From an uncultured Mucispirillum sp. (lineage in GTDB: Bacteria > Chrysiogenota > Deferribacteres > Deferribacterales > Mucispirillaceae), in assembly GCA_944325215.1 (NCBI GenBank), contig CALUZC010000025.1, forward strand, positions 1-32,138: a stretch of DNA of 32,138 nucleotides. Reading direction: 5' to 3'. The first letter of the stretch is position 1, and every line of letters begins with the position of its first letter. Positions 1 to 32,036 of the stretch are shown here, piece by piece. The notes beneath the pieces are model-generated. The model saw only the letters and a list, made by a program, of their open reading frames with translations. It was not told the origin of the DNA and did no database searches. A program made the position numbers and the translations under genes.

Positions 1-60
1 ATTGTTTACGCTACCTTGAGCGCCAATTGCTGTTGAGTTATTTACTATTGAAAGAGCCAT
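1..60 (-). CDS. Flagellin, N-terminal 20 codons only (runs off the window)
   Basis: The reverse complement begins with ATG at position 60 and reads MALSIVNNSTAIGAQGSVNN, the start of the flagellin D0 helix. It is nearly identical to the start of the plus-strand flagellin at 2992: the first 47 nucleotides are the same and the following differences are mostly silent. A strong ribosome site (GGAGGAT) lies just upstream on the minus strand. The rest of the gene is outside the window, so its length and variable domain are unknown. Flagellins are secreted by the flagellar type III apparatus and polymerise into the filament. Confidence 0.93.
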   Translation of the reverse strand, partial: MALSIVNNSTAIGAQGSVNN

Positions 61-992: not shown

Positions 993-1021
993 TTGACAAT
1001 AGTATATAAGTAATATATTTT
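993..1021 (+). promoter_or_regulatory. Likely promoter of the toxin-antitoxin pair
   Basis: A perfect -35 TTGACA (993-998) is followed 17 nt later by TATTTT, or 15 nt later by TATATT. The antitoxin start is about 50 nt downstream. It diverges from the sigma-28 promoter at 928-954. Confidence 0.5.
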
Positions 1022-1069: not shown

Positions 1070-1600
1070 ATGAATTACAATAAATACACTTTCAAACAAA
1101 TAGTATTATATATAATAAACAAAATCAATAAACAAGAATTAGGAAATGTTAAACTTAATAAAATATTATGGTTTTCAGATTTAGAAAAATGTAAAAATGA
1201 AGCATACACAATTACAGGTGAAACATACATTAAACAAAATTATGGACCAGTTGCAAAACATTTACCATCAATTTTAAGAGAACTTGAGAAAATAGATAAA
1301 GCAATAACAATAGAAAGAGAAACACCAGACAGTATGCTTTTATATACACCAGTTAAAAAAGCAGATACTAATTTATTTAAAAATGATATTAAGTATATTG
1401 ATGAAACAATAGAAAAATTAAGACATATGAAGTCAAAAGATATTAGCAAATTAACACATACAAAACTATGGGAAAGTTTAAATATTGGTGAAGTTATGCC
1501 AGTAGATGTTGAAGCATTAGAATATTTTGTAGATAATGAAACAAAGGATAGTGATATACAATGGGAAAAAGAAAATAATAATTTAAAAAATGTTGGATAG
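1070..1600 (+). CDS. Panacea/SocA-like (DUF4065) antitoxin
   Basis: The 176-residue product has the hallmarks of the Panacea (DUF4065, SocA/GepA-like) domain: an N-terminal KLNKILWFSDLEKCK helix (about residues 28-42), a GETYIKQNYGPV segment (about 50-61) and a following LPSILREL helix. Panacea proteins are promiscuous antitoxins that pair with unrelated small toxins. The gene lies 5 bp upstream of an 89-codon ORF on the same strand, the usual bicistronic TA layout. The reading frame is more AT-rich than the flagellins, consistent with acquisition. The start ATG has a modest AGGG ribosome site. The family call is from motif recognition; the neutralised target is unknown. Confidence 0.75.
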   Translation: MNYNKYTFKQIVLYIINKINKQELGNVKLNKILWFSDLEKCKNEAYTITGETYIKQNYGPVAKHLPSILRELEKIDKAITIERETPDSMLLYTPVKKADTNLFKNDIKYIDETIEKLRHMKSKDISKLTHTKLWESLNIGEVMPVDVEALEYFVDNETKDSDIQWEKENNNLKNVG

Positions 1601-1605
1601 TCTTA

Positions 1606-1875
1606 ATGTATAACATTACAAATATATCATATTTTAATAATAAAGTAAAAAATACTTATGCATATAAAAACAGTATTGAAGTTCGTTATCGGATAAGAGC
1701 ATTTATAAAATCATTAGAAATTAACCCAATTAAAAATTTTGTATGCAGTAGTCCATTAACATATAACTTTATTGTAACTATTCCATTTAATCAAGATAAT
1801 TATAAATTAATAGCTAAATATATAATAGAACAAAATAATATAATAATAAAAGATGTTTTATTTTACAAATTATAA
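1606..1875 (+). CDS. Candidate toxin partner of the Panacea antitoxin
   Basis: This is an 89-residue protein that I do not recognise. It reads as a short N-terminal beta segment, a basic helix (about 22-37, VRYRIRAFIKSL), two beta strands around SSPLTYNFIVTIPF (about 48-61), a helix (NYKLIAKYIIEQ) and a final strand ending KDVLFYKL. It has no signal peptide or membrane segment. It starts 5 bp after the antitoxin stop with only a GGA as ribosome site, so translational coupling is likely. The toxin role is inferred from position and size. A compact mixed alpha/beta fold such as RelE/ParE is possible, but no catalytic signature is evident. Confidence 0.55.
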   Translation: MYNITNISYFNNKVKNTYAYKNSIEVRYRIRAFIKSLEINPIKNFVCSSPLTYNFIVTIPFNQDNYKLIAKYIIEQNNIIIKDVLFYKL

Positions 1876-7859: not shown

Positions 7860-7887
7860 TTGACTTTTTAAGTATATATGGTAGTAT
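7860..7887 (+). promoter_or_regulatory. Possible sigma-70 promoter of the modification cluster
   Basis: TTGACT is followed 16 nt later by TAGTAT (or 19 nt later by TATTAC), about 27 nt before the FabH-like start. It diverges from the flagellin sigma-28 promoters. Confidence 0.45.
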
Positions 7888-7913
7888 TACTAAAATATAA
7901 ATTCGGTGTATAT

Positions 7914-8858
7914 ATGATTAAACATTCAATATATCTTCCTCTAAATAAAATTGAAAATGACCACTTTGCTTCTATATATGATGATTGGGATTCAGAACGC
8001 TTTTTTAGTCAAACAGGAATAAAATCAAGATATTATGCTAGCCCAAATGAAACATCTGGCAGTATGGCTGCAGCGGCACTTTCAAATTTAATAGATAAAT
8101 ATAATATAGATAAAAATTGTATTGATTTTATCGTATGTGTAACAGAAACCCCAGATAATCTTCTTCCAGCAACAGCTTATAAGGTGCACCAAATAGTAGG
8201 GCTGTCAAATAAATGTGGTGCATATGATATTAATCATGGATGTTCAGGCTTTACATATGGAATAATGAATGCATGCAATCTTATTAATTCTGGAATGGCT
8301 AATAATGTTGCACTGTTAAATACTGATACTCTATCTCACTATCTTGATAAAAACGATAGAGGCATAACCACAATTGTTGGCGATGCTGCATCTGCTTTTT
8401 TAATAGATAAAGCTACATGCAGTAATATAATGAACTTTGTATATGGAACAGATAGCTCAGGGTATGATAAGCTAATTATTAAACCAAAAGACGATGATAA
8501 AAGTAAAGAACAATATCTTTATATGGACGGAATGGATGTTTTTTATTTTGCAATAAATAATGTACCTAATATTATCAAAGAAATTCTACAAGCTAATAAT
8601 TTATCTATTGATGATATTGATTTTATAGTCTTACATCAAGCAAATAAAACCATACTGGAATATGTAAAAAAAAGGCTGAAAATTAAAGATGAAAAATTTT
8701 ATATTAATTTAGAAGAAACTGGTAATACAGCAAGTGTAACAATTCCTATAGCAATAAATAATTTAGTTAAAAATGGAGATTTAAAAGATAATATGAATAT
8801 TCTAATTTTGGGATTTGGTGTTGGATATTCATGGTGTGGTACGATTATAAGGTGGTAA
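7914..8858 (+). CDS. FabH-like 3-oxoacyl-ACP synthase III
   Basis: This is a 314-residue thiolase-fold enzyme of the ketoacyl-ACP synthase III family, which condenses an acyl-CoA or acyl-ACP with a malonyl-type thioester. The catalytic triad is visible: Cys110 in HGCSGF, His241 in LHQAN and Asn271 in GNTAS. The C-terminal GFGVGYSW is the glycine-rich end of the family. The start at 7914 (MIKHSIYLP) matches where FabH proteins begin; a start at 7878 would add 12 residues with no ribosome site. It is the first gene of a tight cluster, 1 bp before a carrier protein. A dedicated carrier next to it argues for a special acyl product, like Campylobacter FabH2 (Cj1303), rather than primary fatty acid synthesis. 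Confidence 0.88.
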   Translation: MIKHSIYLPLNKIENDHFASIYDDWDSERFFSQTGIKSRYYASPNETSGSMAAAALSNLIDKYNIDKNCIDFIVCVTETPDNLLPATAYKVHQIVGLSNKCGAYDINHGCSGFTYGIMNACNLINSGMANNVALLNTDTLSHYLDKNDRGITTIVGDAASAFLIDKATCSNIMNFVYGTDSSGYDKLIIKPKDDDKSKEQYLYMDGMDVFYFAINNVPNIIKEILQANNLSIDDIDFIVLHQANKTILEYVKKRLKIKDEKFYINLEETGNTASVTIPIAINNLVKNGDLKDNMNILILGFGVGYSWCGTIIRW

Positions 8859-8859
8859 T

Positions 8860-9081
8860 ATGACTTTTGAAGAAAAAATGAAAATATTTAGAGAAACTTT
8901 TCTAATTGATGATAATGTAGAATTAAACGGCGATACTAAACTTAGTTCACTAGATAACTGGGATTCTATGTCTAAATTATCGCTCATTATAATTTTTAAA
9001 GACTACTGTGATAAAAAATTGACTTTTGAATTGCTTGATAGTTTTATAACAATACAAGATGTTTTTGATGCTATGGATTAA
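8860..9081 (+). CDS. Acyl carrier protein (first of two)
   Basis: A 73-residue acidic four-helix protein with the phosphopantetheine site DSM in NWDSMSKLSLI (Ser36). It starts 1 bp after the FabH-like stop, so the two are translationally coupled and it is probably that enzyme's partner. The sequence around the Ser (WDSMS) differs from housekeeping AcpP (DSLD), as in specialised carrier proteins. It would be activated by a phosphopantetheinyl transferase encoded elsewhere. Confidence 0.85.
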   Translation: MTFEEKMKIFRETFLIDDNVELNGDTKLSSLDNWDSMSKLSLIIIFKDYCDKKLTFELLDSFITIQDVFDAMD

Positions 9082-9084
9082 AAA

Positions 9085-9405
9085 ATGAATATAGCCAATA
9101 ACACTTATTTAACAATTGGTGTAACAGATGGTACAGGTTCAGTCTTAGCTCATACACTAATAAATGAGAAAGGATGGTTATCTTATTCATCATCAAAAAT
9201 TGAAACTGAATTAGTTCATAATTATATTGATAAAATGTGTGAAAATGATAGTAATGCAACACAATCTCTTGGTTATATTAAACTAAAAGAATTAAAAGAA
9301 CTTACTTTAGACTTTCTTTTAAAAAGCAATCCAAAAACAATTAGAACTATATTTGATATAAATGGTGGTGGGTTTAATGTTAATACCATACTTAGAGTTA
9401 GCTAG
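9085..9405 (+). pseudogene. Collapsed short-chain dehydrogenase (SDR), internal deletions
   Basis: The 106-residue frame keeps three SDR landmarks in order but lacks what should lie between them. The Rossmann glycine loop is at about residues 12-18 (GVTDGTG). The YxxxK catalytic pair (YSSSK) follows at about 34-38, where a normal SDR has it near 150. The C-terminal cofactor-loop end is LGYIKLKELKELTLDFLL...IFDINGG, matching the family's LG.....EI...V.FL...G..I.VDGG. Strands beta-2 to beta-5 and the substrate loop are missing, yet the frame is open. A fold without them should not be active, so I call it a remnant of a FabG-like reductase. The 29-bp overlap with the next gene may keep it translated. 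Confidence 0.6.
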
Positions 9406-11467
9406 AAACTTAAAAATATCTTCTGGAAGCACTGTTTTTATATCATCAGACATTTCTAGGCTTGCATTTGAAGCGCTAGAAAATAATATAGACTTTAATG
9501 TAAATGAATTTATAGATATCATACAAGATAAAATTGGCAATGAAGGTACCCTTTTATTTCCTGTGTATAATTGGGATTTTTGTCATGGAATACCATTTAA
9601 TTATAATAAAACAGTAGGTAAAACTGGTTTACTTGGAAATGCTGCATTAAAAAGAGAAGATTTTAAACGAACTAAAAACGCACTTTATTCTTTTGCTGTT
9701 TGGGGAAAGGATAAAGATTTTCTATGCTCTTTAGATCCTGTTATTTCGCTGGGAAGAAACACTGTATTTGAGTATTTGCATCGTAATAATGCAATAAATG
9801 TTGTACTTGATGTTGCTTTTAGCGATCATTATACTATATGCCATTATGTAGAACAATTGCTTGGTGTTCCTTATAGATATAATAAGTATTTTAAAAGCGA
9901 CTATATTGATGAGCATGGAAATGTTAGTAGAAAAACATATTCTATGAGTGTTAGATACTTAGAACTAGACGTTCAAGGAAATGCTGATGCTTTATATGAT
10001 GAATTTTTAAAACATGGGGCTGCTTATGAAGAAAAAATAGGCAGGCATACAATATCATATATTGATATTGCAAAATCAATACCTTTAATTGAAAAAGATA
10101 TTCTTGAAAATAATGCTGCTATGCAGGCTCAATTTAAGGGTCAGTTTGATAAAAAATTATCTTCTGATGAAAGAATGTATAAAATTATAAAAGATTTATT
10201 TCCTATAACACGCTCCATTTCTGGTAATGGAAATAGACAGACATTAAAATATTTAAAAGAAAACTGCCTTGGAGAACTTAAAATACTTGAATATTCTATT
10301 GCTGATAACCCAACAATTTTTGACTGGGAAACACCATATGAATGGAATATTGATGAAGCATATATTGAAGATGAAAATGGAAATATTATAATAGACTTTA
10401 AAAATAATAACCTGCATATTCTAGGATATTCTGAAAGTGTGGATATTACAATACCATTTTCAGAACTTGATGAACATCTATATTCATTAGAAGATGATAT
10501 TGATGCTATACCATATGTTACATCATATTATAAAACACGCTGGGGCTTTTGCCTTTCTCACAGGCAAAGGGAAGAACTGCGTAAACAGCCTGAAAAACTG
10601 TACCATGTAGTAATCAAATCTAACTTTAATAAAAACGGCTCTATTACATATGGTGAGCTTATTATTAATGGCTATGAAGATGATGAAATATTAATATCTA
10701 CATACATATGCCATCCATCAATGGCTAATGATAACCTATCAGGCATAGCTGTTGCAACTAAAATTGCAAAATATATATATGCACTGCCAGAAAGAAAATA
10801 TACATACCGCATTATATTTATTCCAGAAACTATTGGGGCTTTAATTTACTTAAAAGAAAATATAAACCATTTACAAAAATATGTAAAAGCAGGCTTTGTG
10901 CTTTCTTGTATTGGCGATGACGGTGATTATTCCTGCGTCCATACTCCATATAATAATACATATACTGATAAAATAGTTACTCATGTTTTAAAGCATATTA
11001 CAGATACCCCAAAAGAGTATTCTTATATAGAAAGAGGAAGCGATGAAAGGCAGTTTTGTGCTCCTAATGTAAACTTACCAATATGCACACTTTCACGCAC
11101 CAAGTTTGGCAAATTTAAAGAGTACCACACATCAAATGATAACCTTGATTTTGTTACTGAAAAAGGCCTGCAAGGTGGCTTTGAATATGTAAAAAAATGT
11201 ATAGAAATATTAGAAAATAATAATTTATATCAAATAAAAACTATTGGTGAGCCTCAGCTTGGCAAATATGGTTTATACCCTACTATCAGCCAAAAAGGCA
11301 GTGCTGATTATACAAGACGCCTTACAAATATTATTGCATACCTTAACGGTGAAAACTCTATACTTGATATTGCAGAAATATTAAATGTGCCTTTTAATGA
11401 GGTATTAGAAATTATTATGCAATTAAATGAAAAAAATTTAATAAATATAGTTGGAACAGAAAAATGA
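9377..11467 (+). CDS. Fusion: AAC(3)-like acyltransferase + DUF4910 aminopeptidase-like protein
   Basis: Residues 1 to about 260 form an aminoglycoside N3-acetyltransferase-like domain (GTLLFPVYNWDF, ALYSFAVWGK, CHYVEQLLGVPYRY). Residues about 265-600 are a DUF4910/DUF2172 M28-type aminopeptidase-like domain: LFPITRSISGNGNR, then HPSMANDNLSG, FIPETIGALIYL, GSDERQFC and EYHTSNDNLDFV carry the likely His/Asp/Glu metal ligands. Residues about 640-690 form a small winged helix. In C. jejuni these are separate genes of the flagellin glycan locus (Cj1295 for DUF4910; Cj1296/1297 for AAC(3)-like). A role in acyl transfer to flagellin sugars is inferred; aminoglycoside resistance is unlikely. The start at 9377 follows GGTGGTGGG; 9362 is the alternative. 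Its stop overlaps the next start. Confidence 0.85.
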   Translation: MLIPYLELARNLKISSGSTVFISSDISRLAFEALENNIDFNVNEFIDIIQDKIGNEGTLLFPVYNWDFCHGIPFNYNKTVGKTGLLGNAALKREDFKRTKNALYSFAVWGKDKDFLCSLDPVISLGRNTVFEYLHRNNAINVVLDVAFSDHYTICHYVEQLLGVPYRYNKYFKSDYIDEHGNVSRKTYSMSVRYLELDVQGNADALYDEFLKHGAAYEEKIGRHTISYIDIAKSIPLIEKDILENNAAMQAQFKGQFDKKLSSDERMYKIIKDLFPITRSISGNGNRQTLKYLKENCLGELKILEYSIADNPTIFDWETPYEWNIDEAYIEDENGNIIIDFKNNNLHILGYSESVDITIPFSELDEHLYSLEDDIDAIPYVTSYYKTRWGFCLSHRQREELRKQPEKLYHVVIKSNFNKNGSITYGELIINGYEDDEILISTYICHPSMANDNLSGIAVATKIAKYIYALPERKYTYRIIFIPETIGALIYLKENINHLQKYVKAGFVLSCIGDDGDYSCVHTPYNNTYTDKIVTHVLKHITDTPKEYSYIERGSDERQFCAPNVNLPICTLSRTKFGKFKEYHTSNDNLDFVTEKGLQGGFEYVKKCIEILENNNLYQIKTIGEPQLGKYGLYPTISQKGSADYTRRLTNIIAYLNGENSILDIAEILNVPFNEVLEIIMQLNEKNLINIVGTEK

Positions 11468-12213
11468 TTGAAGATATTATATTAACAGAGCAGGAAAAAC
11501 TATACTGGGAAAAAATCTTTAATACAGAATTTATTTTTGAAAAAGGCTGTTACAGCACATGCAATAGTCATTGCTGTAAATGGGATACTCCAGATTTACC
11601 ACTAACAATTATACCAAAAGGTGGTACTCTTTTTTATCTACCTAAAGAATATGCATATATTTCTAAATATGGAAAAATAACTGAAATACCACCCTATAAA
11701 ATGAAAACAAAATTATTTGATAAAGAACTTTTTATATACTATAAACATTGTAATGATGATAGTAACTGTAATATAAAGTTTTCACGTTCACTTTATTGTA
11801 AGCTCTATCCTTTTATACCTGTTTTTGATATAGAGGGAAATCTGTTGGATTTAAAATTTATTTCAGTATATGATGTTACATACAATATTATAGGGCAAAA
11901 ATCACCCTGCTATGTAAAAGATTTGAAAGCTAAATATATTGACTTATGGAGCAAAGAAGATTCTAATATTCATCTCCTTAAAAATCCATATACATTATTT
12001 TATTTAATGGTTGGTAACTTAATACACGATAATTATGTGGAGACATTAAAATCAAATAATAAATTAATTAATTTACAAGGTAAAGAATTCTGGAAAAAAT
12101 GGGAAAAATTATACCTTGCAGGCAGACTTATAAATAAAAATAAACTTGAAAAAGGTATTGAAAAACTTTATAATGACTTCAGTATAAAATATAATTTTTC
12201 TCTTGAGGATTAA
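11464..12213 (+). CDS. Cysteine-rich protein, YkgJ-like metal-binding pattern
   Basis: This 249-residue soluble protein has clustered cysteines: C29, C33, C37 and C38 (C-x3-C-x3-CC), then C96 and C102, C112 in RSLYCKLYPF, and C149. The CC pair plus a later R-x3-C-x2-YP segment resembles the YkgJ-type zinc/iron-binding family, also found in the flagellin lysine methylase FliB. Overall length and the other motifs do not identify it further. The ATG overlaps the previous stop by 4 bp and the next gene starts at the base after its stop, so it belongs to the same translation unit. A metal or iron-sulphur site is inferred; substrate unknown. Confidence 0.6.
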   Translation: MIEDIILTEQEKLYWEKIFNTEFIFEKGCYSTCNSHCCKWDTPDLPLTIIPKGGTLFYLPKEYAYISKYGKITEIPPYKMKTKLFDKELFIYYKHCNDDSNCNIKFSRSLYCKLYPFIPVFDIEGNLLDLKFISVYDVTYNIIGQKSPCYVKDLKAKYIDLWSKEDSNIHLLKNPYTLFYLMVGNLIHDNYVETLKSNNKLINLQGKEFWKKWEKLYLAGRLINKNKLEKGIEKLYNDFSIKYNFSLED

Positions 12214-12447
12214 ATGGATACAATAAGACAAACAATTAAAGACATTTTTACAGCAAATAATATAGATATATCTAATATTGATGAAAATAAATCATTAATA
12301 GAATCTGGTATTATAGATTCTATGACATATGTTAATATTTTATTAGAAATCGAAGACTCTCTTAATATTGAAATAGATTTTGAAAATATTGATTTAGCCT
12401 CTATTGTTTCAATAAAAGGGCTCTGTGATTATATTAACAGCTTATAA
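12214..12447 (+). CDS. Acyl/peptidyl carrier protein (second of two)
   Basis: A 77-residue carrier with GIIDSMTYVNILLEIE; Ser36 is the phosphopantetheine site. The LIESGIIDSM context is closer to D-alanyl or aminoacyl carrier proteins than to fatty-acid AcpP. This suits the adenylating ligase encoded at 13238 as its loading enzyme (compare Cj1307/Cj1308 of C. jejuni). It begins immediately after the preceding stop and its last 6 bp overlap the end of the convergent methyltransferase gene. Confidence 0.85.
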   Translation: MDTIRQTIKDIFTANNIDISNIDENKSLIESGIIDSMTYVNILLEIEDSLNIEIDFENIDLASIVSIKGLCDYINSL

Positions 12448-13131
12448 TTTTTCTATAAACATATGATAAACACTATTAGTAATTTCTTCATCAATAAACT
12501 TACAATCGTCTGAAATAACATAAGATACTCGGTCATTTCTTCTTAAAAATACCACTTTGAATCTATCATTTAGTATTTTTATCACGCCATACAACCCAAT
12601 ATTATTTACATATATATTATTACCTTTAAAAGAAGCTGATGCATGACCATCATCACTAAAAAGCTTAATTTTTTTAGTGCTGATTTCTGATTGTGGAGTT
12701 AGTAATATTACCCCCCCCCCAACAGTTACTCTATGAACTTCATCAATAGCTTTTTGATACATATCTTCATTGACACATACAAGTGAACCATGGTCTATAA
12801 CCATATGAAAAAAATTATCCTTAAATGGAAGATTGTCAACCGATGCAACTGACATTTCACCATGTAAACCACTTACATTAAATGACCTTATACAATAATC
12901 AATAGCTGTTTGAGATATATCTATACCATATACATTACATCCCTGCTCTGCTAAATATTTTATATTTGCTCCACCACCACAGCCCAATTCTAATGCATTG
13001 ATTTCTGAAGGTAAAACACCAGGGTATTTTTTATAATAAAAATTTAATAATTCTATAATTATAGAAAATGGATATTTCATCATAGCTCTATCATTAAGGC
13101 TACTATATAGTTTTTCCCAATGATTTTCCAT
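12442..13131 (-). CDS. Class I SAM methyltransferase with in-frame G10 tract (phase-variable candidate)
   Basis: A 229-residue Rossmann-fold methyltransferase of the Methyltransf_11 type: motif I ALELGCGGGANIKYL (about 46-60), the acidic end of strand beta-2 in YGIDIS, and VHRVTVGGGVILL (about 132-144) near motif III. The glycines of this last segment are encoded by ten consecutive G on the coding strand, in frame at n=10. Gain or loss of one G would frameshift and truncate the protein. It is convergent with the second carrier protein and divergent from the adenylating ligase. In C. jejuni a methyltransferase (Cj1300) sits among the homologous genes. A sugar- or acyl-O-methyl role is inferred. 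Confidence 0.85.
   Translation of the reverse strand: MENHWEKLYSSLNDRAMMKYPFSIIIELLNFYYKKYPGVLPSEINALELGCGGGANIKYLAEQGCNVYGIDISQTAIDYCIRSFNVSGLHGEMSVASVDNLPFKDNFFHMVIDHGSLVCVNEDMYQKAIDEVHRVTVGGGVILLTPQSEISTKKIKLFSDDGHASASFKGNNIYVNNIGLYGVIKILNDRFKVVFLRRNDRVSYVISDDCKFIDEEITNSVYHMFIEKL
12711..12720. repeat. C10/G10 homopolymer inside the methyltransferase gene
   Basis: Ten C on the plus strand, ten G on the coding strand. In DNA of about 30% GC such a run is very unlikely by chance and is the classic slipped-strand mispairing tract of phase-variable surface-modification genes. The present length keeps the gene in frame (ON). Confidence 0.9.
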
Positions 13132-13174
13132 AAAACTACACCTTATATTCCTAGTATTTTTTTACACTATCATA

Positions 13175-13204
13175 TTGCACTTTTATTTTCAACTTAAATA
13201 TAAT
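13175..13204 (+). promoter_or_regulatory. Promoter of the adenylating ligase
   Basis: TTGCAC (13175-13180) and a perfect TATAAT (13199-13204) are 18 bp apart, with a start expected about 25 nt before the ATG at 13238. The ligase thus has its own promoter, separate from the fabH-led unit. Confidence 0.55.
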
Positions 13205-13237
13205 ATAATATTTGCAATAAAGCATGGGGTTAATTTT

Positions 13238-14776
13238 ATGACAATACAAAAAGATCTTGTACAAATTTTTAAACGATATAGCACACAAAATGCACTATAT
13301 ACTTATAATACATATTATACATATAATCAGTTGTATTCTGCTGCTTCTAATATTACAAATATGATTTTAAATATTTCAAATGAAAAACAACCAGTAATTA
13401 TTATGGGCTCAAAAAGTTTTTTTACTCATGCAGGAATAATAGGTACTGTTATGGCTGGCTCTTACTATACTCCATTAAATGAAACTTTCCCTATTGAAAG
13501 AAATATTGATATTATAAAAATATCAAATGCGCAGAGTATAGTTATAGATATAGATGATTTTAAAAATTATGAAAATATATTAGATAGTATAGACGACTAT
13601 AATATAATATGCCCAGAAAAAGATTTAGAGTATATAACCAAACGTTTTCCAAACCATAAAGTTAGATGTAATGGACAATCAAAACAAAATATAGCAGCTG
13701 AGGAAAATGATGCTGTTTATATGTTATTTACTTCAGGAAGTACTGGCATACCGAAAGGTATTAAAATATCACATTATAACTTATATAACTATATAAAAGC
13801 TTTTACTAAAAGAAACTCAATTACTGATAACGATAGATTTATACAAATGAATGATTTAACATTTGATTTATCAGTTCATTCTTTATTTTTATCTATTTTG
13901 CATGGTGCATGCTTATATATACCTAGTAGCAGCGAAAGAATAAACCCAGTAAAATTTATTAATGACTACAGTATTACAAATATTCTAATGGTTCCATCAT
14001 CTATAGCGTTTATGAAAAAAATGAGAGTATTAAAAGATAATTCACTTATGTCCGTTAAATATTTATCATTTTGTGGTGAAACACTACCTTTTGATAATGC
14101 AATATTAATGGCCAAAGCAGCACCTAATGCAAAGCTTGAAAATTTATATGGTCCTACAGAGGCTACTATTGCATGTACATATTTTGAATTTGATAAAAAT
14201 ACCGAAGAATTAATAGAGTATTCTGGCTCTATGCCTATAGGAAATGCTTATGATGGAATGAATGTGGAACTTTTTGATAATAATCTAAATAAAATCATTG
14301 ATAATAGTATCGGGCAAATTGTATTATCTGGTAAACAACTTACTACAGGTTATGTTAATAATAAAGAACAAACAAAAGAAAAATTTATAATGATAGATAA
14401 TAAACTTCACTATATTACTGGAGATTTAGGTAGAGTTATCAATAATAAACTTGTATTTCTTGGCAGAAATGATGCTCAAGTGCAGATAAAAGGTTATAGA
14501 GTGGAAATTTTTGAAATAGAAAATGCAATATCCAAAATAAATGGTATAATTAGCAATGCTGTTATTCCAACACCTGTTGGTGCTGCTACTTATGAAAATA
14601 CAACAGCATTTCTTGTTTGCAACAAAGATATTGATACAAATAAAATAAAAGATGATTTATCTAAAACGCTTCCTAGCTATATGGTACCAAATAAATATAT
14701 TATACTAGATAATATGCCATTAAACTCCAATGGTAAAATTGATAGAAATCAGTTAAAGAAAATATTACAACCATAA
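13238..14776 (+). CDS. AMP-forming amino acid/acyl adenylating ligase
   Basis: A 512-residue ANL-superfamily enzyme that adenylates a carboxylate and loads it on a carrier. The P-loop LFTSGSTGIPKG is at about 163-174, followed by YGPTEAT (about 307-313), the TGD motif in YITGDLGR, the hinge GRNDAQVQIKGYRVE, and the C-terminal catalytic lysine in NSNGKIDR (about 501). The layout is that of a stand-alone adenylation domain such as DltA. The nearest carrier is the ACP at 12214, across the methyltransferase gene; the relation mirrors Cj1307-Cj1308. The substrate cannot be read safely from sequence. The start at 13238 gives a family-like MTIQKDLVQIF; the upstream extension overlaps the promoter. 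Confidence 0.85.
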   Translation: MTIQKDLVQIFKRYSTQNALYTYNTYYTYNQLYSAASNITNMILNISNEKQPVIIMGSKSFFTHAGIIGTVMAGSYYTPLNETFPIERNIDIIKISNAQSIVIDIDDFKNYENILDSIDDYNIICPEKDLEYITKRFPNHKVRCNGQSKQNIAAEENDAVYMLFTSGSTGIPKGIKISHYNLYNYIKAFTKRNSITDNDRFIQMNDLTFDLSVHSLFLSILHGACLYIPSSSERINPVKFINDYSITNILMVPSSIAFMKKMRVLKDNSLMSVKYLSFCGETLPFDNAILMAKAAPNAKLENLYGPTEATIACTYFEFDKNTEELIEYSGSMPIGNAYDGMNVELFDNNLNKIIDNSIGQIVLSGKQLTTGYVNNKEQTKEKFIMIDNKLHYITGDLGRVINNKLVFLGRNDAQVQIKGYRVEIFEIENAISKINGIISNAVIPTPVGAATYENTTAFLVCNKDIDTNKIKDDLSKTLPSYMVPNKYIILDNMPLNSNGKIDRNQLKKILQP

Positions 14777-30205: not shown

Positions 30206-30241
30206 ATATTGCAAATACATTATTTTAAGGAGAAAATAAAA

Positions 30242-31084
30242 ATGCGAAATATTTTTATGATTTTAACAACTTTACTTTTTTTAACAGCATGTGCTGATGA
30301 TCCTTCAAACAAAGGAAGTAGTATAGATACTACACCACCACCTACAACTACTACACCTACAGTTTCAGTTACATCATATGTATCAATTATACGCAATACA
30401 AATAATAGTCATGGAGATTATTGTATAAATGGTGTTTCTAAAGCTGCTGGTGATACAGTTACTCTTACTTTCCAAAATCCTGCAGATGAATCAAAATATA
30501 GAATAACAAAAGGGTATGTTTTTGATAACAGATACTGCTTTTCAATAACATCTGATCTGAAAGATGTTAGTATGACAGCACTTAATGCAAAAGTAACTAA
30601 TAGAAATGGCACAGTAATATTTGATAATAATCAAATATTATTATTAACTATTTACAAATATTTTCCATATGATCCAGCAAAACAAATACCACTTCCAAAT
30701 CTTTTTGATTTTTCAACAACAAAAACACAAGTTATTGTTTTAAATCAATTAGAAAACGAATATTTCAATACATATGGTGATAATTCATGGTCTACATCAT
30801 TTGAAGCTAATTCTGCTTCTATTAGATCATATGGTTTTACAAGCACTCAGTCTGGGGATTTAGATGGGACTACTACTTCTAATAATTTTACAGTAGATGA
30901 TTCAACAGCAACATTTATGGTTGGTTCAACATCTTATCCAAACTGTCTTATTTCAAAAAAGACAACTCCATGTGCCATACAAGTAACTTATGGGGGCACA
31001 GGTGCTGCAAATGCATCTTTTTACATTCGTTTAAATAGATCAACTACTTATCCAGATACTAGATTAGATTTTTTTAGTAAGTAA
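30242..31084 (+). CDS. Lipoprotein of unknown function (first of a paralogous pair)
   Basis: 280 residues with a lipoprotein signal MRNIFMILTTLLFLTAC; the lipobox is LTAC, lipidated Cys17. A Thr/Pro-rich linker (TPPPTTTTPT, about 30-40) follows, then a beta-rich domain with VSVTSYVSIIRNTNNSHG, NPADESKYRITKGY, YGFTSTQSGDLDGTT and a C-terminal CAIQVTY...SFYIRLNRS. The gene downstream encodes the same domain without the linker. Two Cys (about 235 and 246) in YPNCLISKKTTPCA are conserved in both and may form a disulphide. The start at 30242 follows AAGGAG. I do not recognise the family. Confidence 0.85.
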   Translation: MRNIFMILTTLLFLTACADDPSNKGSSIDTTPPPTTTTPTVSVTSYVSIIRNTNNSHGDYCINGVSKAAGDTVTLTFQNPADESKYRITKGYVFDNRYCFSITSDLKDVSMTALNAKVTNRNGTVIFDNNQILLLTIYKYFPYDPAKQIPLPNLFDFSTTKTQVIVLNQLENEYFNTYGDNSWSTSFEANSASIRSYGFTSTQSGDLDGTTTSNNFTVDDSTATFMVGSTSYPNCLISKKTTPCAIQVTYGGTGAANASFYIRLNRSTTYPDTRLDFFSK

Positions 31085-31148: not shown

Positions 31149-31181
31149 TTGACAAATTTTTATATATTTCTATTTTATAAT
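31149..31181 (+). promoter_or_regulatory. Promoter of the second lipoprotein gene
   Basis: A perfect TTGACA (31149-31154) is followed by TATTTT after 16 bp and by a perfect TATAAT after 21 bp. The ATG is at 31206. Which -10 is used cannot be told from sequence. Confidence 0.55.
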
Positions 31182-31205
31182 GATTATGTTTTAAATGGAG
31201 ATATT

Positions 31206-32036
31206 ATGAAAAAATTAATCCTTATCCCTGCTTTAATATTAATCTTTGCTGCATGCAATAAAGAAGAAAAGAAAATGGAAAAAGTAGGAAAAGTAAAAAC
31301 TGCTGCCCCAGCTTTATCTGTAACTTCAAATATTACAGTATTAAAAAATGATAATAATTCCAATGCTGTATTTTTTATTTCTGATATAGCTGATGATGAT
31401 ACTATAAATATTACATTTCAAGAACCATATACAGAAAAAGATTTTATTGTTTCAAAAGATTACCCTATGGATAGTGCATATGGAATATCTATAAAACCAG
31501 TTAGCAAATCTACTAATGCTTATGCTTTTACTGTTCAGGTAAAAAATGCTGAAAATAAAGAAGTGTTAAATGAATATGTTTACTTTTTTGCATTAAAAAA
31601 GCTTTATCCTGCTTATGCTGATAGTAATAATACACCTATGCTTGATGATGATGTGGTTATATTTAATAAAAATAATAGAGAACAGTTTATTATTATAAAC
31701 CAAATAGAAGAAGAAAATTATACTGTTATTGAAAATAAAATTTATCAGGATAATGTTTATAGAAATATTTATCCTATTACAGAATATGGTTTTTCAAATA
31801 AATTTACTGGCTCATTAAAAGAAAATACAAACGGTATTTATTCTATCAATAACCAGGATAAAGAATTTTTAATAAATAATAAGCCTTATAATAACTGCCT
31901 TGTAAGTGATAATTTCCATGGCACATACCCATGTGCTTTAAAAATAACAAGTAATGGCGAAAAAAGTGATGCTATATTTTACATTAGGCTAAATGATAAA
32001 TATATAGATACAAAAATTAACCTAAAAACAGAATAA
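31206..32036 (+). CDS. Lipoprotein of unknown function (second of a paralogous pair)
   Basis: 276 residues with signal MKKLILIPALILIFAAC (lipobox FAAC, Cys17), a short Lys/Glu linker, then the same domain as the upstream gene. Aligned landmarks are LSVTSNITVLKNDNNSN with VSVTSYVSIIRNTNNSH, TINITFQEPYTEKDFIVSKDY with VTLTFQNPADESKYRITKGY, ITEYGFSNKFTGSL with IRSYGFTSTQSGDL, and YNNCLVSD...YPCALKIT with the paired cysteines. The linker changed from Thr/Pro to Lys/Glu. It has its own promoter and a GGAG ribosome site. The pair arose by tandem duplication followed by strong divergence. Confidence 0.85.
   Translation: MKKLILIPALILIFAACNKEEKKMEKVGKVKTAAPALSVTSNITVLKNDNNSNAVFFISDIADDDTINITFQEPYTEKDFIVSKDYPMDSAYGISIKPVSKSTNAYAFTVQVKNAENKEVLNEYVYFFALKKLYPAYADSNNTPMLDDDVVIFNKNNREQFIIINQIEEENYTVIENKIYQDNVYRNIYPITEYGFSNKFTGSLKENTNGIYSINNQDKEFLINNKPYNNCLVSDNFHGTYPCALKITSNGEKSDAIFYIRLNDKYIDTKINLKTE

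Follow-up and report, generated by a model that had tools for sequence, protein, structure and literature searches.

Panacea domains (DUF4065, SocAB-like) are the antitoxins of the PanAT type II toxin-antitoxin systems (Kurata 2022, Ernits 2023). Partners with PemK- and ParE-type domains have already been described, and 41 of 88 published partner clusters lack a domain match (PMC8832971). A sequence-only reading had paired a recognizable Panacea antitoxin with an 89-residue protein in Mucispirillum, and had proposed that the partner may represent a new toxin family, Panacea antitoxins being known to pair with many unrelated toxins. The analysis below indicates that the pair is likely to be a type II PanAT module, antitoxin first, in which a putative growth-halting toxin probably adopts a fold of the RelE/ParE superfamily.

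The panA locus and its 89-residue partner

The window is the whole stretch of DNA that was analyzed; its 32,138 nucleotides are all of contig 25 of a 2.55 Mb genome (G000). The two open reading frames were found exactly where the sequence-only reading had placed them (Table 1). The antitoxin domain recognized at the outset was confirmed as Panacea and spans residues 29–134 of PanA (PF13274, E 2.1e-16, 61.3 bits versus a cut-off of 25.7), and phrog_1281 matches nearly the whole length of the protein (E 5e-16). G59-P60, H130, and W134 are invariant across the PanA clade. The antitoxin gene comes first, and 5 nt separate its stop from the start of the panT candidate. Antitoxin-first is the commoner PanAT order, found in 943 of 1,268 loci (PMC8832971). 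No additional co-directional gene was found near the pair, and the features by which a PanAT locus is recognized in silico are all present at 1070–1875. The GC content is 17% in the toxin gene, 24% in panA, and 30% in the window. The candidate promoter falls just inside position 989, the point where the sister genome G010 diverges, and it is one of 15 promoter-like sites in a region where 12.7 are expected from shuffles, which is no excess.

Table 1. Features of the Panacea pair in the window.
Feature	Coordinates	Strand	Basis
panA, stand-alone Panacea (SocA/DUF4065) antitoxin, 176 aa, ATG	1070..1600	+	PF13274 match
panT candidate, putative toxin, 89 aa, ATG, predicted RelE/ParE-like fold	1606..1875	+	partner relatedness and AF2 model
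Candidate promoter of the pair, TTGACA, 17 nt, TATTTT	993..1021	+	consensus scan, 10/12 matches

The pair lies, as originally described, between divergent flagellin genes, one with its start at ~60..1 on the minus strand and the other with its start at ~2992 on the plus strand. An AT-rich repeat of ~85–100 bp occupies 2005–2100; dozens of copies are present in G000 and in the other genomes of the genus, frequently at the ends of contigs. Between a flagellin gene and a glmU-like gene, positions 7878–14776 hold a small cluster possibly concerned with flagellin or surface-glycan modification. Its genes encode a KAS III protein (PF08541), a methyltransferase-like protein, an AMP-binding ligase, and a 701-aa protein in which an aminoglycoside-3-N-acetyltransferase-like domain (PF02522) is fused to DUF4910/DUF2172 and a winged helix. 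Neighboring genes at 30209–31084 and 31149–32036 encode two putative lipoproteins of ~290 aa that resemble each other and have no Pfam match.

The 89-residue protein carries no known toxin signature, in agreement with the sequence-only reading. Searches of Pfam, NCBIfam, and PHROGs with E values up to 10 gave no match, PADLOC gave none, and no PDB sequence matched (best E 1.3). Nothing was found outside Mucispirillum in IMG/VR, plasmids, or the genomes of its own family. The other two frames on the same strand are full of stops at this 17% GC. These stop-filled frames, together with a homologous 101-aa partner behind a homologous Panacea gene and a partner dN/dS of ~0.34 (both described below), indicate that the 89-codon frame is a real gene and not a chance frame.

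Panacea and its partner are kept together in three Mucispirillum species

A second pair is present in the same genome (L012, contig G000:C22). Its Panacea protein is 45% identical to PanA, and a 101-aa open reading frame starts one base past the Panacea stop codon. The same type of pair recurs in G010 (L015/L028) beside the same downstream gene. The 89-aa protein was compared with the 101-aa partners (L012/L028). Global alignment gave z ~4.5, a score reached by 0 to 1 of 1000 shuffles, and in local alignment 0.2–0.8% of shuffles did as well. Against a profile of the two 101-aa proteins, the window protein was outscored or equaled by 1 of 500 shuffles. The proteins have the motif Y-K-N/T-S-x-x-[VI]-R in common. 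On this sequence evidence the 89- and 101-aa proteins are distant relatives. The favored alignment places their last strands together. The default MAFFT alignment of the C-terminal halves, made through an 'E.NNI' match, leaves the last strand unpaired and is disfavored. The 101-aa homologue was also sought in phages, plasmids, IMG/VR, 397 Campylobacteria genomes, and its own phylum, and nothing was found outside Mucispirillum; two weak phylum matches (L023, L024) were rejected as homologues, both lying inside unrelated genes.

Between G000 and G010, the Panacea gene of the L012-type pair has a dN/dS of 0.15 and the gene of the 101-aa partner one of 0.34; thus, both genes encode selected proteins under purifying selection. 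A Panacea protein and an unrecognized partner of 89–101 aa are kept together in three Mucispirillum species.

The history of the cassette can be read from two related genomes. In the third species (G008, Mucispirillum schaedleri isolate SI.A35; L027), the PanA protein is 100% identical. The G008 cassette (1040–1880) has 3 differences in 840 bp (99.6% identity), two of which leave the proteins unchanged, and the intergenic DNA at 700–1000 is 75–84% identical to the window. In the G008 toxin gene a T is inserted after window base 1631, and the toxin ends at ten residues (MYNITNISYF-stop); this apparent frameshift involves a single homopolymer base in a metagenome assembly. A ~640-bp insertion with inverted ends (L003 ~1750–2390) is also present in G008, followed by a partial second copy consisting of the last ~85 bp of the toxin gene and the 3' flank. 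In G010 the cassette is absent. Its left flank extends to window base 989, its right flank resumes at 2078, and unrelated repeat-like sequence of ~790 bp lies between them (L084 ~1066–1850). The insertions in G008 and G010 (~640–790 bp) are MITE-like, have ends like TTCACCCCCATTTTTTATTAAAAAATG, and sit at or next to the cassette site. The sequence comparisons indicate that the AT-rich cassette is mobile and younger than its flanks, and that one visible decay step, at the metagenome homopolymer of G008, apparently removed the putative toxin but left the antitoxin intact.

The domain family, gene order, spacing, conserved pairing, mobility, and toxin-only frameshift give good support to the Panacea toxin-antitoxin reading. 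The partner could instead be an accessory or degenerate protein rather than a toxin, with PanA working alone or on a distant toxin. The faster evolution of the partner in the homologous pair (dN/dS 0.34 versus 0.15) and the broken gene in G008 fit this idea, and 8 of the 25 PanT candidates assayed in one study were not toxic in E. coli (PMC8832971). However, both genes are kept paired in the paralogous cassettes and in the wider clade, and modules of this kind usually decay by losing the toxin and retaining the antitoxin. We therefore consider a non-toxin partner improbable. Like published PanAT systems, the locus pairs a Panacea antitoxin with an unrecognized small putative toxin, places the antitoxin first of two closely spaced genes, and forms an AT-rich mobile cassette. 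It differs in that the 89/101-aa partner family was found only in Mucispirillum and is absent from the libraries searched.

Predicted fold of the partner

Structure prediction and a fold search had been proposed at the outset among the checks on the partner, and the outcome depends on the input. AF2 with the 89-aa sequence alone gave a ferredoxin-like model, beta-alpha-beta-beta-alpha-beta, with a pLDDT of 57 and a pTM of 0.43; the five models ranged from 36 to 57. A second model was made with an alignment (A14) of the window protein and five distant Panacea partners (L039, L036, L034, L032, and L031), with the 101-aa homologue rows excluded from the job. This model has a pLDDT of 86.1 and a pTM of 0.72. 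With these distant partners in the alignment, its elements are helices 7–15, 18–22, and 24–39, a short strand 47–49, and strands 52–61, 64–75, and 78–88.

Foldseek singled out no family for the A14 model (best E 0.024, a designed protein), and RelE was missing from the best rows of Foldseek alone for either model. A viral structure library gave no useful match. A second look with VIA-align covered Foldseek's top 1000 chains. The best row for the A14 model was Mycobacterium tuberculosis RelE2 (Z 9.2, 2.2 Å, 74 residues), and further rows included RelE1 (9.0), archaeal RelE (8.6), ParE (8.5), and E. coli RelE (8.4). Rows 1–37 are RelE/ParE/YoeB/HigB/YafQ-type toxins, save the cA4-activated Cami1, and nearly all rows to 46 are likewise. 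So uniform a list of RelE/ParE matches would be unlikely for a wrong model. The A14 fold call is partly circular and not independent proof because the A14 partners are RelE-like in look and only weakly homologous to the window protein. On the A14 model, the 89-aa protein probably has a RelE/ParE-like fold.

The main competing idea keeps the PanAT module but gives its toxin another fold, for instance a ferredoxin-like one. The single-sequence model matches ribosomal S6/ACT structures with Z up to 9.1, and the protein has no sequence link to RelE. However, that model is of low confidence, residues 63–77, which are helical in it, align by hand with a strand-like stretch of the 101-aa homologues that contains G, and pLDDT rises to 86 with the RelE-like arrangement. 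We assign this reading a minority share of the likelihood. A membrane-acting small PanT, like those of E. coli, Helicobacter, and Bartonella, is very improbable. PanT toxins have two main modes of action, of which membrane disruption is one (PMC8832971), and I, L, F, and Y are abundant in the C-terminal half, but by inspection the hydrophobic stretches are short with polar or charged breaks (NFIVTIPF, KLIAKYIIEQ, IIIKDVLF) and include no 18–20-residue segment. The A14 model has no long hydrophobic helix either.

RelE/ParE-superfamily toxins of the canonical type are encoded elsewhere in G000 (L085, L086), with YefM-like and ribbon-helix-helix-like antitoxins. The window protein resembles this superfamily in the fold and element order predicted by the A14 model, in size (89 aa), and in that model's structural matches with Z up to 9.2, and differs from it in having no detectable profile similarity and in apparently lacking most RelE RNase residues and the C-terminal catalytic tail. 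A RelE/ParE profile of 14 proteins did not find it (240 of 493 shuffles were as good), and it has no match to PF05016 or any other Pfam family. In the E. coli RelE numbering, the catalytic residues are K52, K54, R61, R81, and Y87. An approximate alignment with the RelE of the same genome (L086) places N54 and I56 at RelE K52 and K54, and perhaps K67 at R61; the C-terminal tail with RelE R81 and Y87 is missing from the 89-aa protein in the same approximate alignment. The catalytic roles of K52, R81, R83, and Y87 (PMC2791442) and those of Y87 and the arginines (PMC4989188) have been described. Because most RNase residues appear to be absent, mRNA cleavage of the RelE type by the standard residues is unsupported, and the 89-aa protein is probably a RelE-fold protein that is not a RelE mRNA interferase. 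Within the RelE/ParE superfamily, a common fold can serve either RNA cleavage or gyrase inhibition (PMC10440598).

Under the favored PanAT reading, PanA would be made first, bind the partner directly, and hold it inactive, as stand-alone Panacea domains neutralize directly (PMC10440598). The partner would have the RelE/ParE arrangement of a strand, helices, and a three-stranded C-terminal sheet. Degradation of PanA, or the sensing of a cue, would then release a toxin that halts growth. If the RelE/ParE fold is right, the target would most likely be the ribosomal A site, with a block of translation, at about even chances; inhibition of gyrase, as by ParE, is a weaker candidate. The module may serve the upkeep of the mobile element or phage defense.

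These models alter the original proposal. The idea of an unrelated toxin is likely wrong, given the RelE/ParE-like alignment-guided model. The suggestion of a new family holds for the sequence, which has no library match and homologous partners only in Mucispirillum, and probably fails for the fold. The 89-aa protein is thus best described as a toxin candidate that is novel in sequence and probably known in fold.

Partners across the wider Panacea clade

A Panacea profile built from the Mucispirillum proteins was used to find relatives of PanA. They occur in Alphaproteobacteria, Helicobacter and other Campylobacteria, viral contigs, and phages. All but two of the ~29 distinct clade loci have an open reading frame of at least 61 aa, usually 84–127 aa, whose start lies at –52 to +16 nt relative to the Panacea stop codon. 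No partner scanned matched Pfam or NCBIfam above the cut-off, a PemK partner excepted. Many clade partners end, by eye, in a RelE-like hairpin (SFRVLYEVAGRRVHLWSL in L034, IIFRYTIDGHRVIVQDIKI in L039, LIAKYIIEQNNIIIKDVLF in the window), and one alphaproteobacterial partner (L052) matched a RelE/ParE profile in an hhalign comparison (P 8.5e-5, probability 60%).

The partners L031–L063 (Alphaproteobacteria, Campylobacteria, phages) are like the window protein in lying directly after PanA, in their 84–127 aa, in having no Pfam match, and in the C-terminal hairpin seen by eye; they are unlike it in that their sequence similarity to it was at or near chance for most of them, and only L039 came close to relatedness (~0.5–0.8% of shuffles as good). 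In a profile test with the other PanA partners, 13 of 500 shuffles matched the window protein's score. PDB profile searches with the partner alignments found nothing, whereas the same search with the canonical RelE of G000 found RelE; the window protein is therefore far more diverged than a canonical RelE. No significant hhalign link was found among the Mucispirillum, alphaproteobacterial, and campylobacterial partner groups, so the partners are not claimed as one family. They are treated as analogous partners, likely with a shared fold, rather than as a proven family.

A broader reading makes the Mucispirillum and wider clade partners a sequence-novel toxin group, built on a RelE-like scaffold without RelE RNase residues and aimed at neither A-site mRNA nor gyrase, with Panacea as the shared antitoxin across very divergent toxins; we regard it as doubtful. 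The favored reading, a PanAT module with a RelE/ParE-fold toxin, adds an unrecognized small toxin candidate to the Panacea network. It suggests that many Panacea partners scored as having no domain may be highly diverged RelE/ParE-fold proteins invisible to profile libraries. Mucispirillum offers natural test material: one genome has both the intact cassette and a divergent paralogous pair, and a sister species combines the identical antitoxin with a broken toxin.

The genus has other Panacea loci. One in the genome of the window has a PemK-like partner (L010, G000:C55; E 1e-7), and another adjoins a flagellin gene and has an unrecognized 139-aa partner (L016, G012:C12). PanA also shows weak similarity to models of the DarG antitoxin, in their C-terminal part (NCBIfam E 0.0012, PADLOC E 3e-5), which suggests that DarG carries a Panacea-like domain.
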